This document shows, piece by piece, positions 44,382 to 55,561 of a stretch of DNA of 64,000 bases; positions within the stretch are counted from its first letter, which is position 1; each line of letters begins with the position of its first letter. This DNA comes from Haloprofundus halophilus. GTDB taxonomy: Archaea; Halobacteriota; Halobacteria; Halobacteriales; Haloferacaceae. The notes under the pieces are model-generated. The model was not told the DNA's origin and made no database searches. It was given only the letters and a program-made list of their open reading frames with translations. The stretch spans positions 682,001 through 746,000 of the forward strand of contig NZ_QQRR01000002.1 of assembly GCF_003439925.1 (NCBI RefSeq), in the 5' to 3' direction. The translations under genes were made by a program, and so were the position numbers.

Positions 44382-46040
44382 TTACGGCTGGGCGATTTCG
44401 TACGCCTTGATGGACTCGTCGCGACGTGGCTGCCAGTCGATACGCGAACTCGCCCCGTAGACGCTGTACTGCCGGTTGAGGAAGATCCACGGCGCCTCGT
44501 CGTGGGCGAGTTGGTTCGCTTCCCGAAGCAGCTGTTCGCGCTGGTCGGCGTCGGCGGTCTGCCCCGCCTCGTCGAGTAGGCTGTCGAACTCCTCGTTGCT
44601 CCAACTCGACAGCGCGCCGTCGGTCGACAGCAGCGGGATGAGCGTCTGACTCGCGTCGAACGTCTCGTTGCCCCAGCCGATGAGGTACCAGTCGGGCATG
44701 TCCTCGATGTTGCCGGTGGTGAGCTGCGCGGCGAGGTCACCGAAGTCGCGCTGGGTCACCTCGGCTTCGACGTTCGAGAGCTCGTTGATGTAGCCGACGA
44801 CCGCCTGCGCGATCTCGAGGTCTTTCAGGTAGCGACCGACCGGCGTGTGCAGTTCGAGCGTCGCGCCGGCGAACCCGCTCTCCTCGACGAGCTGTTCGGC
44901 CTGCTCGACGTCGTACGGGTACGGGTCGATGTCGGGGTTGTAGCCGACGAACCCTTCGAGCGTCGGCTGACCCGTCGGGTCCGAGAAGTCCGCGAGCACC
45001 TCCGCGACGATAGTGTCGAGGTCGATGGCGAGGTTCATCGCTCGCCGGAAGTCGCGGTTCGAGAACGGCTCGACGTCGTACCGCATTCCGTTGTAGATGA
45101 CGCGCGTACTCGGTACGGCTTCGACGCTCGTGTTGTCGTTGCCGTTGATGCGGCTGACCTCCTGTGGTGGGACGTTGACGACGATGTCCGTCTCGCCGCT
45201 GACGAGCTGGTTGACGCGGGTGCTCGACTCTGACGCCGAGGTGATGGTCAGCGCGTCGACGGCCGCCGGTTCGCGCCAGTACTCTTCGTACTTCGTGTAC
45301 TCGACGCTCTCGTCTTGGGTGTAGTTCGACAGCTGGAACGGTCCGGTGCCGTTTGCGTGGCTGTTGATGTAGCTGTTGTCGTTCGATTCGACCCACGACT
45401 GCTGCATGATGTCACCGTAGCTGGCGAGCAGCCCGACGGCCATCGGGTTGACGCCGTCGGAGACGACGTCGACCGCGTTCTCGCCCTCGACCGGCTGCGC
45501 CTCCGTGATACCCGCCAACTGGTCGCTCTGCGGGCTGGCGAGGTTGCCGACGTCGGGGTTGACGATGCGGTTGATGCTGAACGCGACGTCCGCGGGGGTG
45601 AGTTCGTCGCCGTTGTGGAACGTGACGCCCTCGCGGAGCGTGAGACGAACGCGGTCCGGTTCCGCCTGTTCGTAGTTCTCGGCGAGACCCTCGATGACCT
45701 GCCCCTCGCGGTTCCGGTCGAGCGCCCCCTCGTACATCTGCATGGTGATGATGTCCGTCGTCGTCTCACGGTGGTCGTGAGGGTCGAGACCGGAGTCCAT
45801 CTGCCCCTGCGTGATGGTGACGGCGAACTCTCCGCCGTCCTGGTTGTCCTCCCCGTCGGAGCTCCCGGTGTCGTTACCGGTGTCGTTTCCACCGCCGTCG
45901 CCCCCGGTGTCCGCGGGCGTCTCGGTGTTTATCTCGTCGGAGTCGCCGGAACAACCGGCGAGTGCTGCCGTCGCGGCGGCACCGCCTGCCAACTGGAGGT
46001 AACGGCGTCTGCTAACACGTGACTGCCTGTCTTCAGTCAT
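44382..46040 (-). CDS. oppA: Peptide ABC transporter substrate-binding lipoprotein (SBP_bac_5)
   Basis: 552 residues. A Tat signal with twin Arg in VSRRRYLQLAGG and lipobox LAGC near residue 30, then an acidic Gly/Asp linker typical of haloarchaeal lipoproteins. The SBP_bac_5 body has QMYEGALDRNREGQVIEGLAENYE, VRLTLREGVTFHNGDELTPADVAFS and SNYTQDESVEYTKYEEYW. It binds peptides or related solutes outside the cell for the opp permease. First gene of the operon; the TATA box at 46064-46071 lies 27 nt upstream. Confidence 0.94.
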   Translation of the reverse strand: MTEDRQSRVSRRRYLQLAGGAAATAALAGCSGDSDEINTETPADTGGDGGGNDTGNDTGSSDGEDNQDGGEFAVTITQGQMDSGLDPHDHRETTTDIITMQMYEGALDRNREGQVIEGLAENYEQAEPDRVRLTLREGVTFHNGDELTPADVAFSINRIVNPDVGNLASPQSDQLAGITEAQPVEGENAVDVVSDGVNPMAVGLLASYGDIMQQSWVESNDNSYINSHANGTGPFQLSNYTQDESVEYTKYEEYWREPAAVDALTITSASESSTRVNQLVSGETDIVVNVPPQEVSRINGNDNTSVEAVPSTRVIYNGMRYDVEPFSNRDFRRAMNLAIDLDTIVAEVLADFSDPTGQPTLEGFVGYNPDIDPYPYDVEQAEQLVEESGFAGATLELHTPVGRYLKDLEIAQAVVGYINELSNVEAEVTQRDFGDLAAQLTTGNIEDMPDWYLIGWGNETFDASQTLIPLLSTDGALSSWSNEEFDSLLDEAGQTADADQREQLLREANQLAHDEAPWIFLNRQYSVYGASSRIDWQPRRDESIKAYEIAQP

Positions 46041-46165: not shown

Positions 46166-46798
46166 ATGGCCGCACACCGCCGGTCATCGCTGAGAAATCT
46201 GTTCGACCAATCGCCCACCCCGCACATCGCGCATCCGCCGCGAACCCACCACCGCCAGTTCTACGTCGCGACCGACGGGTCGTACCGTCCCGGCGGGGGC
46301 GGACTCGGGGCCGTCATCGAGACGCGCGACGGCGTACGGGTCGCCCGCGTCTCCCTCCCCGACGCCGTTCCGAATAACAACGTCGCCGAGTACCGTGCGC
46401 TTCACCTCGGCTTGGACGTGCTGGCCGCGCGCGCACCTAGAACCGCGAGCGTCGGCGTCCTCGTCGACCACGACGACCTGGCGGCGAACGTCAACGCCGC
46501 GACGCTCGCGGCCGCCGACCCGTCGTGGAACCCCGCCGGAACGCCGCCGGTCCCGGACGGGAGCGAGAACCACTGGCGCGGCATCCTCGCGCGCATCTCG
46601 GGGTTCGCCGACCTCCGCGCGGCGCGCATCGACAGCCGCGAGAATCCCGCCCACGTGCTGGCGAACACGCCCACCGAGTACGCTCACGTGAACCGCGAAC
46701 CCGACCGCTGCGTGCTCCCCGAACCGCCGGGAGCCTCGAACGGCGCCGGCGACGGCGTTCTCCCGCCGTCGCGGACCGAACGGACCGCGGGCGACTGA
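46166..46798 (+). CDS. rnhA: RNase H family protein (RNase HI type)
   Basis: 210 residues. After an N-terminal tail of 32 residues the RNase H fold begins: [22 protein letters not shown] with the first catalytic Asp, [19 protein letters not shown] with the Glu, and [13 protein letters not shown] with the next Asp. The fourth acidic position may be in the [16 protein letters not shown] stretch. It degrades RNA in RNA-DNA hybrids. An insert of about 30 residues ([17 protein letters not shown]) precedes the last helix. The C-terminal 30 residues are disordered. Confidence 0.82.
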
Positions 46799-46860: not shown

Positions 46861-47463
46861 ATGCCGTCACCGTGGACACGACTCCGGGAAGACCTGCGCG
46901 CCGCACTGGAGAACGACCCGGCCGCGCTGAGTTACACTGAAGTTCTGTTGACGTACCCAGGAGTCCACGCGCTCTGGATGCACCGGATAGCGCACGCGCT
47001 GTGGAACGCACATCTGCACCTCCCCGCTCGACTGCTCTCTCATCTCTCGCGGTTTCTCACCGGCGTCGAACTCCACCCGGCGGCGACCGTGGGCCGTCGG
47101 GTGTTCATCGACCACGGGATGGGCGTCGTCGTCGGCGAGACGGCCGAGATAGGCGACGACGTCGTACTCTACCACGGCGTCACGCTCGGCGGCAACTCGA
47201 TGCAGCGGACGAAGCGCCACCCGACCGTCGAGGACGGCGCCGTCTTGGGCGCGAACGCGACCCTCATCGGGCCGCTCACCGTCGGCGAGAACGCCCGCGT
47301 CGGGGCGGGCTCGGTCGTCGTCGACGACGTTCCCCCCGAGACGTCCGTCGTCGGGAACCCCGCCCGAGCACCCGGAGACGGGACGAACGCCGGCGAAGGG
47401 GGAGACGAGGACGGAGACGAAAATCGACGCTCCGACTCGGTGACAGACGCCGACGACACCTGA
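46861..47463 (+). CDS. cysE: Serine O-acetyltransferase
   Basis: 200 residues. Makes O-acetylserine for cysteine synthesis. An N-terminal helical domain ([42 protein letters not shown]) is followed by a left-handed beta-helix: [57 protein letters not shown]. The catalytic His-Asp residues are in FIDHG and LYHGVT. The C-terminal 35 residues are acidic and disordered. No cysK adjacent. Confidence 0.92.
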
Positions 47464-47530
47464 CAGCCCGGGTCAGTCGCGGACGTCGACGATGTCGACG
47501 GAGGGAGTCGCGGAGGCGGATTCGGGGGGA

Positions 47531-47540
47531 GAAAATTGAT
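47531..47540 (+). promoter_or_regulatory. TATA-like element of the TatC-like gene
   Basis: gaaaattgat centred about 28-29 nt before the ATG at 47565, arguing for a transcript separate from cysE. Confidence 0.5.
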
Positions 47541-47564
47541 AACACGGTTGGGCATACCCCTCGC

Positions 47565-48284
47565 ATGGTCCTCGAAGCAGATCGCGTGCGGGAGCTCGGA
47601 CCCAGAGGGAGTGGCGTTCTTCTGCGGATTGCCCGCACGCAGGCACGCGAACTCACCCTCCTGTTTTCCGTCGCCGTCGCGCTGACGCTCGCCGCGTTTC
47701 GAGCGACCGGGGTCGACCTCCAGAAGGCCGCGCTCGGCGTCTACGCGCCCGCGGGGACGACGCTCCCGACCGACCCGCTGGTCTCGCTCGGCGTCGAACT
47801 GCAGGTTGCAGCGCTCGCAGGCGTCGGCGTCGCCGGAACGGCGCTCCTCTGGCAGGCACGCGCGGAGATTCGTCCACACGGCACGCGAACGAGACGGCTG
47901 TATCTCCTGTCGGCGGGACTCTGTCTGCTCGGCGTCGTCCTCGGTGCGGTGCTCGTCGTTCCCGCACTGCTGGAACTGCTCAAGTTCGGCATCCTCAGAA
48001 GCGGGTTCGTTCCGGCGTACCGACCGTACTGGCTGGCGGAGGTGGCGCTGTTTCTGCCCGTCGCCGTCGGCGTCGCCCTCTCGCTACCTCCGCTGATGGT
48101 CGCGCTCGTCGGCGACGGTATCGTCTCCTCGTCGGTGCTGCACCGCGACTGGGGGTTCGTCCTCCTCGGCGTGCTCGGCTACGCGTCGGTGTACTCGCCG
48201 CCGGACTCGGTGACGTTCGTCGTCTACGGCGGCGTACTCTTCGCCGGCTACGTCGCCGGATTGGCCGTGCTGACGTTCGGGTGA
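47565..48284 (+). CDS. Divergent TatC-like six-helix membrane protein
   Basis: 239 residues, about six helices. The order of features follows TatC, the Tat translocase core. Residues 26-46 are a first helix after a RELTLLF amphipathic start. Residues 65-97 read as an external loop plus helix 2 (TTLPTDPLVSLGVELQVAA). Residues 112-141 match the LFLLG-x-F-x-VxP-xLxFL segment (LLGVVLGAVLVVPALLELLKFG). Residues 155-190 match the YLxFVxxLxLAFGLxFELP-V-xxGIV block (YWLAEVALFLPVAVGVALSLPPLM...GDGIV). Residues 208-214 give SVYSPPD, like the TPPD motif. The conserved Glu of TatC helix 4 is missing. It is likely a paralogue with altered function rather than the housekeeping TatC; an unrelated family with similar topology is the alternative. 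Confidence 0.6.
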   Translation: MVLEADRVRELGPRGSGVLLRIARTQARELTLLFSVAVALTLAAFRATGVDLQKAALGVYAPAGTTLPTDPLVSLGVELQVAALAGVGVAGTALLWQARAEIRPHGTRTRRLYLLSAGLCLLGVVLGAVLVVPALLELLKFGILRSGFVPAYRPYWLAEVALFLPVAVGVALSLPPLMVALVGDGIVSSSVLHRDWGFVLLGVLGYASVYSPPDSVTFVVYGGVLFAGYVAGLAVLTFG

Positions 48285-48415: not shown

Positions 48416-50665
48416 CTACTCTTCCTGCGCGTCCACGACCGCCACACCCGCCAGATTCACGATGTCCTTCACTTCGTCGCCGCGCTGGAGCACGTGAACG
48501 GGTTTGTCCATGCCGACGAGCATCGGGCCGATTGCCTCCGCGCCGCCGAGGCGCTGCAGCAGTTTGTAGCCGATGTTGCCCGCTTCGAGGTTCGGGAAGA
48601 TGAGCACGTTCGCCGGTTCGTCGAGCTCCGTGAAGTCGTAGGTGCCTTCGAGGATATCCTCGACGACGGCGGTGTCGGCCTGCATCTCGCCGTCGACGGG
48701 GAAGTCGACCTCGGGGTCGTCGTGCAGGATGTCGACCGCCTGCCGCGGCTTTCGGGTGCCCTCGTTCTCGACGCTGCCGAAGTTCGAGTACGACAGCATC
48801 GCCGCGCGCGGTTCGACGTTGAACCGCCGCGCGAGTTCGGCGGTGTGTTTCGTGATTTCGGCGAGCACCTCGTCGTCGGGGTCGAGGTTAACCGTCGTGT
48901 CGGCGGCGAAGATGACGCGGTTCTTGAACGTCAGCATGTACACGCCTGCGGCGTAGTCGGCGTCTTCGGCGGTGCCGATGACCTGCAGCGGCGGCCGCAG
49001 CGCGCTCGGGTAGTGGTGGGTGAGACCGGTGAGGAGCGCGTCCGCGTCGCCCTGTTCGACCATCACGCTACCGAAGTAGTTGCTGTCGCGGCTGATGAGC
49101 TCGCCCGCCTCGCTCCGGGTGATGCCTTTGCGGCGGCGGAGCTCGTGGAGCCTGTCGGCGTAGCCCTCGTGGTCTTCGCCCGCCGGGTCGACGATGTTGG
49201 CGTCGAACTCCAGCCCGAGGTCGGCGGCGGTGGCGCGGATGGTGTCCGCGTCGCCGAGGAGAATCGGGTCGGCGATACCCTGTTCTTGAATCTGGTAGGC
49301 GGCGCGAATCATCTTCTCGTCGGTGCCCTCCGCCAGCGCGACGCGCTTGGGGTCCGACTTCGCCTTGTTGAGCACGACGCGCATCATCTCGCGGGACTTG
49401 CCGAGACGGGCTTCGAGGCGCTCCTCGTAATCGGCCACGTCGAGGTCCTTGCGAGCCGCGCCGCTGGTCATCGCGGCCTGCGCGACGGCGGGCGCGACCT
49501 CGAACAGCACGCGCGGGTCGAGCGGTTTCGGGATGATGTACTCCGAGCCGAACTGCAGCGGCTGGTCGCCGTAGGCCTTCACGACGGCGTCGGGGACGTC
49601 CTGACGGGCCAGTTCGGCGAGCGCCTCCGCGGCGGCGACTTTCATCGCCTCGTTGATTTCGGTCGCGCGCACGTCGAGCGCGCCGCGGAAGATGAACGGG
49701 AAGCCGAGTACGTTGTTCACCTGGTTCGGGTAGTCCGAGCGACCCGTCGCCATGATGACCGTGTCGTCGCGGGCGTCTTTGGCCGCCTCGTACGTTATCT
49801 CGGGGTCGGGGTTCGCCATCGCGAAGATGACGGGGTTGTCGGCCATCGACCGCACCATCTCCTGGGAGACGATGTCGGCGACCGAGAGGCCGACGAACAC
49901 GTCCGCGCCCTCCATCGCGTCGGCGAGGTCGCCGTTCGGGCGGTCGGCGGCGAACTCGCGCTTGAACTCGTTGACCTCGTCGGAGCGGTCGACGGTGATG
50001 ATTCCCGAGGAGTCGCACATCGTGATGTTCTCCCGCTTCGCGCCCAGCGAGACGTAGAACCGGGCCGTGGCGATGGCGCTCGCGCCCGCGCCGGAGAAGA
50101 CGATGTCGAGCTCTTCGAGCTCCTTGTCGACGATTTCGGCGGCGTTCAGAAGCGCCGCGCCGGAGATGATAGCCGTCCCGTGCTGGTCGTCGTGGAAGAC
50201 GGGAATCGACATCTCTTCGCGGAGTCGTTCCTCGATTTCGAAACACTCGGGCGCTTTGATGTCTTCGAGGTTGACCCCGCCGAACGTCGGTTCCATCGCG
50301 GAGACGCACTCGATAATCTCGTCGGCGTCGGCGCGGTCCAACTCGATGTCGAACACGTCGATGTCGGCGAAGCGCTTGAACAGCACGCCCTTCCCCTCCA
50401 TGACGGGTTTCGACGCCTGTGCGCCGATGTTGCCGAGACCGAGCACCGCGGACCCGTTCGAGACGACGCCGACGAGGTTGCCCTTCGCCGTGTAGTTGTA
50501 CGCCTCGTCTGCGTCGTCGGCGATGTCCAGACACGGTGCGGCGACCCCCGGCGAGTACGCCAGGCTCAGGTCGCGTTGGGTGTTCGTCGGTTTCGTCGTC
50601 GAAATCTCGATTTTGCCGGGAGGTGATTGCCGGTGGTACTCCCGTGCGTCGTCATCCAGCCCCAT
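48416..50665 (-). CDS. maeB: NADP-dependent malic enzyme with C-terminal phosphotransacetylase-like domain
   Basis: 749 residues, the MaeB fusion length. Residues 1-430 decarboxylate malate to pyruvate: [35 protein letters not shown], the NADP loop [13 protein letters not shown] and MANPDPEI. Residues 431-749 are a phosphate acetyl/butyryltransferase-like domain ([64 protein letters not shown]) thought to be regulatory in MaeB. ATG 50665 with a TATA-like region at 50689-50700. Supplies pyruvate and NADPH. Confidence 0.93.
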
Positions 50666-54471: not shown

Positions 54472-54598
54472 GGCGACCGTTCGGGTTCGTCGCTTTCCTT
54501 CCGGTCGAACATTAGTAAACGAATAAACACGTCAGACCCAGTGGTTGTTTCCGGTCAGGAAGAAAAGTTGAAGCGTCTGCTTGGCCTCGTCTATCGGT

Positions 54599-55561
54599 AT
54601 GAAGTCAAACCGTCAGTCTGGCGTCAGTCGTCGGACGTATCTGAAGTTAGCCGGAGCGAGCAGCGTCGCAGGCCTCACCGTGACCGCAGGATGTACCGTC
54701 GACACCGGCGGAGACGGTGAAAACGGCGGGGGCGGCGGCGACGGCGGCGACGACGGGTCCGGCAACGACACCGGAACCGACGGGGGCGACGGCGGCAACA
54801 CGGAGATCGTCCCCGGCACCGCGCCCGGGTTCCCGCCGTTCGAGTTCAAAGACGAGCAGGGCGAACTGGTCGGCTTCGACATCGACCTGCTGGAGGCCGT
54901 CGTCGAGGAGACCGACTACACGCTCGCCGACTGGGAGGAGTTCGAGTTCGACTCGCTCATCCCGGCGCTACAGAACGACCGCATCGACGTCATCGCCGCG
55001 GCGATGACCATCACCGAGGACCGTCAGGAGACCATCGCCTTCTCGGACCCCTACTACAACGCCGACCAGTCGATTCTCGTCGCCGGCGGAAGCGACTTCG
55101 ACCCGCAGTCGCTCGACGACCTCGCCGGCCAGACCGTCGGCGCACAGGAGGGCACGACGGGCGCGGGCGTCGTCGAGAGCGAACTCGTCGAACCCGGCGA
55201 CGTCGACCAGTCGAACTTCCGGACGTACGGCAACTACGTCCTCGCCGTGCAGGACCTCGAAAACGGCAACGTCGACGCGCTCGTCATCGACCAACCCGTC
55301 GCGCAGACGTTCGCCGACCAGCGCGACGTCGAGATCGCGTTCGTCTACGAGACGGGCGAGCGCTACGGCTTCGGCCTCCGGCAGAACGAGAGCGACGTGC
55401 AGTCGGCGCTCAACGAGGGGCTGCAGGCGGTCCGCGACAGCGGCCAGTACGAGGAGATTCGCAACGAGTGGTTCGGCGGCTCCGGCGGGGAGACGTCGGG
55501 CAACGAGTCCTCGGGTAACGAGTCCGGAAACAGCTCGAACTCGTCCGCAGTCGGGGAGTAA
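54599..55561 (+). CDS. Polar amino acid ABC transporter substrate-binding lipoprotein (SBP_bac_3)
   Basis: 320 residues. Tat signal SRRTYLKLAG with lipobox TAGC, then a Gly/Asp linker. SBP_bac_3 body: GTAPGFPPFEFKDEQGELVGFDIDLLEAVVEE, IDVIAAAMTITEDRQETIAFSDPYY and VGAQEGTTGAG. A Ser/Asn/Gly-rich tail closes the protein. It captures amino acids for the permeases downstream (3 nt spacing). Confidence 0.93.
   Translation: MKSNRQSGVSRRTYLKLAGASSVAGLTVTAGCTVDTGGDGENGGGGGDGGDDGSGNDTGTDGGDGGNTEIVPGTAPGFPPFEFKDEQGELVGFDIDLLEAVVEETDYTLADWEEFEFDSLIPALQNDRIDVIAAAMTITEDRQETIAFSDPYYNADQSILVAGGSDFDPQSLDDLAGQTVGAQEGTTGAGVVESELVEPGDVDQSNFRTYGNYVLAVQDLENGNVDALVIDQPVAQTFADQRDVEIAFVYETGERYGFGLRQNESDVQSALNEGLQAVRDSGQYEEIRNEWFGGSGGETSGNESSGNESGNSSNSSAVGE

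Follow-up and report, generated by a model that had tools for sequence, protein, structure and literature searches.

Genomic Context of tatX

The window, that is, the whole stretch of 64,000 nucleotides of Haloprofundus halophilus DNA analysed here, carries a gene for a TatC-like membrane protein that we call tatX; "TatX" is the name given here to the clade of the window protein. The gene and its surroundings comprise the following features.

46166–46798, forward strand: RNase H-like gene, which marks the upstream side of the syntenic locus in 24 of 25 members
46861–47463, forward strand: gene resembling serine acetyltransferase (CysE), an assignment based on its hexapeptide-repeat sequence
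47526–47564, forward strand: promoter-like block with the TATA-like sequence AAAATTGATA, from comparison of the upstream DNA of five species
47565–48284, forward strand: tatX, encoding a TatC-like six-helix membrane protein of 239 amino acids (open reading frame, Pfam TatC match, AlphaFold2 model, orthologues)
48416–50665, reverse strand: gene for a malic-enzyme-type protein, named from sequence resemblance, which marks the downstream side of the syntenic locus in 23 of 25 members

A longer frame in the same phase extends 5′ of the tatX ATG. We consider the ATG to be the right start, since all five TatX orthologues of the genus (those of the four other species sampled, four of four, being 81–92% identical) begin with MVLE, and DNA conservation drops about 45 nucleotides upstream of the ATG. 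The block of about 40 nucleotides kept in the five species, beyond which the upstream DNA is not conserved, contains the TATA-like AAAATTGATA at 47532–47541 (−33 to −24 from the ATG), so that the TATA-like element proposed in the preliminary description was found within conserved DNA. This arrangement is consistent with tatX having its own, probably leaderless, transcript.

The RNase H-like gene was found upstream of tatX, in the same orientation, in 24 of the 25 loci compared, and a convergent malic-enzyme-type gene 3′ of it in 23; one exceptional locus lies at a contig end and another (in G263) is relocated. Only in Haloprofundus does a CysE-like gene separate the RNase H-like gene from tatX. 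We regard the TatX members as orthologues because the shared site is independent evidence where identity to the window protein is as low as 24%. In 13 of the 14 non-carriers having the RNase H-like gene, the malic enzyme gene lies within 1.5 kb of it, and a search for TatX remnants at this empty site gave chance-level matches only.

An unusually large share of haloarchaeal exported proteins uses the Tat pathway. In the genome of the window, the genes for TatCo and for the two-domain TatCt are adjacent on one contig (C1), which carries two TatA genes elsewhere, and the tatX window lies on another (C2). TatX brings the number of TatC domains to four in a genome whose Tat system is complete. As all other TatC and TatA matches of the genome are on C1, tatX does lie outside any tat locus with no tatA nearby, as previously described, and no tat gene was present among the neighbours at the tatX loci compared.

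Near tatX, at window positions 44382–46040 (reverse strand) and 54581–55561 (forward strand), two ABC-transporter substrate-binding lipoproteins are predicted that carry a twin-arginine signal and a lipobox, the respective sequences being SRRRYLQLAGGAAATAALAGC and SRRTYLKLAGASSVAGLTVTAGC. Both are predicted to be ordinary haloarchaeal Tat substrates. The one at 44382–46040 is absent beside tatX in genera g16 and g19, and therefore has no constant link to the gene.

TatC Family Membership and Predicted Fold

A Pfam search of the window protein matched TatC (PF00902; 51.4 bits, E value 1.6e-13, residues 36–220; cut-off 25.1) and no other family. Neither NCBIfam equivalog cut-off was reached (TIGR00945, 34.8 versus 132.7 bits; TIGR01912, 43.2 versus 192.6 bits), and four of the 24 other TatX members (G120, G275, G315, and G312) fell below the Pfam cut-off in the genome scan and belong to the same clade nonetheless. 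All 12 scanned members of the first clade profile matched TatC, and the 25-member clade profile, searched against PDB sequences, found TatC only.

The AlphaFold2 model, obtained from the 25-member alignment (pLDDT 82.6, pTM 0.79), has helices at residues 27–48, 71–102, 106–140, 150–183, 196–210, and 215–238. The best seven Foldseek matches were all TatC, and VIA-align scored seven TatC chains at Z 16.0 to 9.6, the next, unrelated chain reaching 5.2. Compared with E. coli and Aquifex aeolicus TatC (9dzz, 9e01, 4b4a, 4hts), the predicted fold scored Z 10.4–13.6 over 208–214 residues, despite an identity of 16–17%. According to the model TatX adopts the six-helix TatC fold, and the positive charges that precede helix 1 and those in the loop joining helices 2 and 3 would suit a TatC topology with the N-terminus inside.

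The TatC-like segment order noted in the preliminary description of this six-helix protein was recovered, with P133 corresponding to E. coli P131 and followed by PVAVGVALSLP and then by SPPD (residues 211–214). The AlphaFold comparison proposed there gave clear matches to TatC structures only, and Pfam and the clade profile led to TatC rather than to an unrelated membrane family. Low identity to canonical TatC and scores under both equivalog cut-offs are what one would expect of an unrelated six-helix membrane protein resembling TatC by chance, an explanation that we consider extremely improbable in view of the Pfam E value, the matches of 12 out of 12 members, and clade-profile and fold searches that returned only TatC. 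An unrelated membrane family was ruled out on these grounds.

Distribution and Ancestry of the TatX Clade

With a 12-member profile, 25 intact tatX genes were detected in 170 genomes of one haloarchaeal family, distributed over seven genera: five of five in the window's genus, 11 in g6, two of two in g16, one in g18, two in g19, one in g91, and three in g95. The 25-member profile found no TatX outside the family when run on 392 genomes from the order and on 391 from the class, each set being a sample of known species; in the search of the order, the weakest TatX member scored 206 bits versus 98.7 for the best canonical TatC. A single-sequence contig scan with TatX, which reaches close relatives only, retrieved Haloprofundus marisrubri only. 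Conservation across haloarchaea, which the preliminary description had left to be checked, thus amounts, in the genomes sampled, to a coherent 25-gene clade in seven genera of one family. TatC paralogues are already known; the literature found on haloarchaeal TatC paralogues and TatCt, in a search of partial coverage that does not establish absence, held no description of the TatX clade.

That some species in the carrier genera lack tatX suggests either repeated loss or gain via recombination at the site. Since it is missing from these and from most haloarchaea, the gene is dispensable. Viral contigs and PLSDB plasmids yielded no relative of tatX, and the idea of a virus- or plasmid-borne gene was dropped for this reason. 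Complete TatCo and TatCt genes co-exist with tatX in all carrier genomes. The number of TatA genes, two in most genomes, is the same in carriers as in non-carriers of the same genera, and the idea of a dedicated TatA partner for TatX was abandoned on that account.

In a maximum-likelihood tree of 68 domains, which contains long branches and for which the tool warns of long-branch joins, the TatX clade was recovered with a support of 100/99 and grouped with the TatCt halves (93/79), TatCo being apart (100/100). Profile scores of TatX pointed the same way (on average 67.5 bits with the TatCt N-half, 45.2 with the C-half, and 21.6 with TatCo). Tree and profiles rule out a derivation from TatCo; the phylogeny with TatCo and TatCt suggested in the preliminary description therefore places TatX on the TatCt side. 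As to the nearest half, the best tree joins TatX with the C-half (88/66) and the profiles favour the N-half; AU tests reject neither alternative (p = 0.30 for TatX with the N-half, p = 0.25 for the two halves together). Being TatC by profile, predicted fold, and tree, conserved, and located outside the tat locus, TatX is rightly read as a TatC paralogue.

Residues Lost and Kept in TatX

In the E. coli TatC structure, H12, E15, F94, Y100, and E103 touch the signal peptide, and T208 and Q215 touch TatB (PMC13323110, PMC5201420). We compared these and related positions, of which the following lie in the window.

48039–48041, forward strand: codon of E159 in helix 4, invariant in 25 of 25 TatX (Gln in 11 and Glu in 3 TatCt N-halves)
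48081–48083, forward strand: codon of S173, at the E. coli E170 position (Ala in 20 and Ser in 5 of the clade)
48195–48206, forward strand: SPPD, residues 211–214, equivalent to E. coli T208-P209-P210-D211, in the loop that links helices 5 and 6
48216–48218, forward strand: codon of F218, at the E. coli Q215 position (Phe in 24 and Leu in 1 of the clade; Gln in 14 of 14 TatCt N-halves)

None of the five signal-contact residues is kept in the window protein, and all five positions are changed across the clade. That of F94 is occupied by Asp or Glu in 23 of 25 members, and the Y100 loop is deleted in 24; the columns of E15 and E103 are poorly aligned, which makes the exact TatX substitutes uncertain and leaves the absence of any conserved acidic pair certain. 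At the polar-cluster site (M205, T208, and Q215) the window protein has Ser, Ser, and Phe, and the loss of Q215 may mean that TatX does not bind TatA. TatX does keep P131 (24/25), T208 as Ser (23/25), P209 (25/25), P210 (22/25), and D211 (23/25), and E159, F163, P165, G169, and P212 are invariant in the clade.

The preliminary description had stressed the lack of the conserved Glu in helix 4. It is indeed absent (S173), but this is weak evidence and not a telling loss, because canonical haloarchaeal TatCs themselves have other residues at the E170 position (in our haloarchaeal sample, Gln in 14 of 14 TatCo and 14 of 14 TatCt N-halves, and Asp in 13 of 14 TatCt C-halves). Judged from the alignment, it is the loss of the twin-arginine-binding set and of Q215 that is telling with respect to E. 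coli.

TatX shares with the TatCt N-half, its closest relative by profile, a GFxPxY...W stretch following helix 3, the SPPD loop together with T217, and the lack of H12, E15, F94, and E103 of E. coli. In contrast to TatCt, in which two TatC domains are fused, it stands alone as one domain, encoded at a distance from the tat locus; the N-half's Gln residues at the Q215 and E170 positions are replaced in TatX by Phe and Ala or Ser, and its Trp at the Y100 position is deleted. With TatCo, TatX has in common a single TatC domain, a similar length, and the predicted topology, whereas TatCo has the twin-arginine-binding set and sits in the tat locus.

We also observed that in the tat loci of 13 Haloferacaceae genomes (L118–L131, G307 contributing two), TatCo keeps E103 and F94 in 14 of 14 and has Pro at the Q215 position in 14 of 14, and the TatCt N-half has Gln there in 14 of 14 and lacks E15, F94, and E103 in nearly all, so that the two TatC tasks look divided between TatCo and TatCt. 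Genome G307 has TatX and two complete TatCo-TatCt loci (L125 and L126; G307:C14:132700-137200 and G307:C11:294900-301200), of which the TatC copies on C14 are divergent in the tree.

Selection on tatX

Within the window's genus, pN/pS of tatX (Nei-Gojobori counts) was 0.21–0.40, compared with 0.09–0.14 for the RNase H-like gene and 0.06–0.10 for the malic enzyme; among eight g6 species it reached 0.33–0.53. Values were below 1 in every tatX pair, and all 25 frames are intact. Selection on tatX is purifying but relaxed.

These values above those of the neighbours, together with the absence of tatX from the same site in some relatives, could be taken as signs of a functionless, decaying relic of a TatCt duplication. 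We hold this to be very unlikely, since pN/pS of 0.21–0.40, intact frames, and the conserved promoter-like block argue against a dead gene, as do the five residues invariant across seven genera. Hence, of the "short, eroded paralogue" initially proposed, the TatC paralogue stands, and the one-off eroded copy gives way to a clade of 25 genes that share a conserved site and evolve under purifying selection.

Possible Roles of TatX

Taken together, alignment and model indicate that TatX is a real, conserved TatC relative that has kept the predicted fold and lost the residues with which E. coli TatC grips the signal peptide; because of this loss, it is probably not a working receptor but a TatC with an accessory or repurposed role. 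The explanation we tentatively prefer, at somewhat less than an even chance, is that TatX is a non-receptor accessory subunit of the Tat machine, a stand-alone third TatC-fold paralogue from the TatCt side. It would insert in the membrane as a TatC-like six-helix protein, pack beside TatCt or TatCo, and alter translocase assembly or activity, and would not itself bind twin-arginine signal peptides; its location in the Tat complex and its modulating role are what we infer. In E. coli, TatC is active only as an oligomer, and certain variant copies of it are able to disturb the wild-type machine (PMC5102672); therefore, a TatC-fold paralogue could act in trans. The presence of complete TatCo and TatCt with an unchanged TatA number is as expected of an add-on and not of a second system. 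Moreover, most signal-contact residues are likewise missing from the TatCt halves, which are encoded in the main tat locus; this fits non-receptor TatC domains being normal in haloarchaea. Against the accessory reading, tatX is dispensable and evolves faster than its neighbours, the change at Q215 may have cost it TatA binding, and the invariance of E159 could reflect some other activity. The further proposal that the clade is a dedicated non-receptor regulator, or decoy, of haloarchaeal Tat, and the first TatC type to work without signal-peptide binding, we regard as doubtful.

Alternatively, TatX might be a TatC-fold protein outside the Tat pathway, with another membrane role built around the invariant E159 and P165 of helix 4, which we rate as the main rival, a serious one though less likely than the accessory reading. 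The signal-binding set and Q215 are wholly replaced, tatX has no linkage to tat genes, and the clade-specific invariants E159, F163, P165, and P212 are kept even in members only 24% identical to the window protein. Nevertheless, the SPPD loop and P131 equivalents, located at TatC interaction surfaces, are retained, and no partner gene or second domain hints at another pathway. E159 itself may be inherited rather than new, since TatCt N-halves have Gln or Glu at this position.

A specialised translocase subunit exporting one or few substrates, either using shared TatA or having TatCo as its receptor, seems to us distinctly improbable. The predicted TatC fold and the two TatA genes of most genomes would suit it, and the TatCt halves, which do without the E. 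coli signal-binding residues, indicate that the absence of these need not abolish an export role and weaken the argument from missing residues to no role in export. However, carriers have no extra TatA compared with non-carriers, no constant candidate substrate adjoins tatX (its neighbours encode an RNase H-like protein and malic enzyme), and Phe replaces Q215 in 24 of 25 members. A self-sufficient translocase is less likely because of the residue losses and the lack of additional TatA in carriers.

Bacillus TatCd and TatCy provide a precedent for two TatC paralogues per genome with specialised roles; these isoforms are treated as functional translocase components (PMC3827258), whereas TatX lacks the canonical binding residues. 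With the fold but not the residues of a receptor, and with its occurrence in a defined group of species, TatX would be a natural test of which TatC surfaces serve assembly and which signal binding. If it proves to act outside Tat, the TatC fold would have been used for something else.

Finally, small multi-helix proteins of about 135–155 amino acids were noticed in the family, the second half of which resembles TatC helices 5–6 with (S/A)PPDPxxQ, including the polar-cluster Gln. They occur at L162/L164 (G263:C1:269493-269903), L165, L166, L168, L170, and G275:C6:36048-36389, and similar matches, a few of which are TatCt itself, were obtained in 27 of 167 family genomes. By their sequences, these proteins possibly form a "mini-TatC" family.
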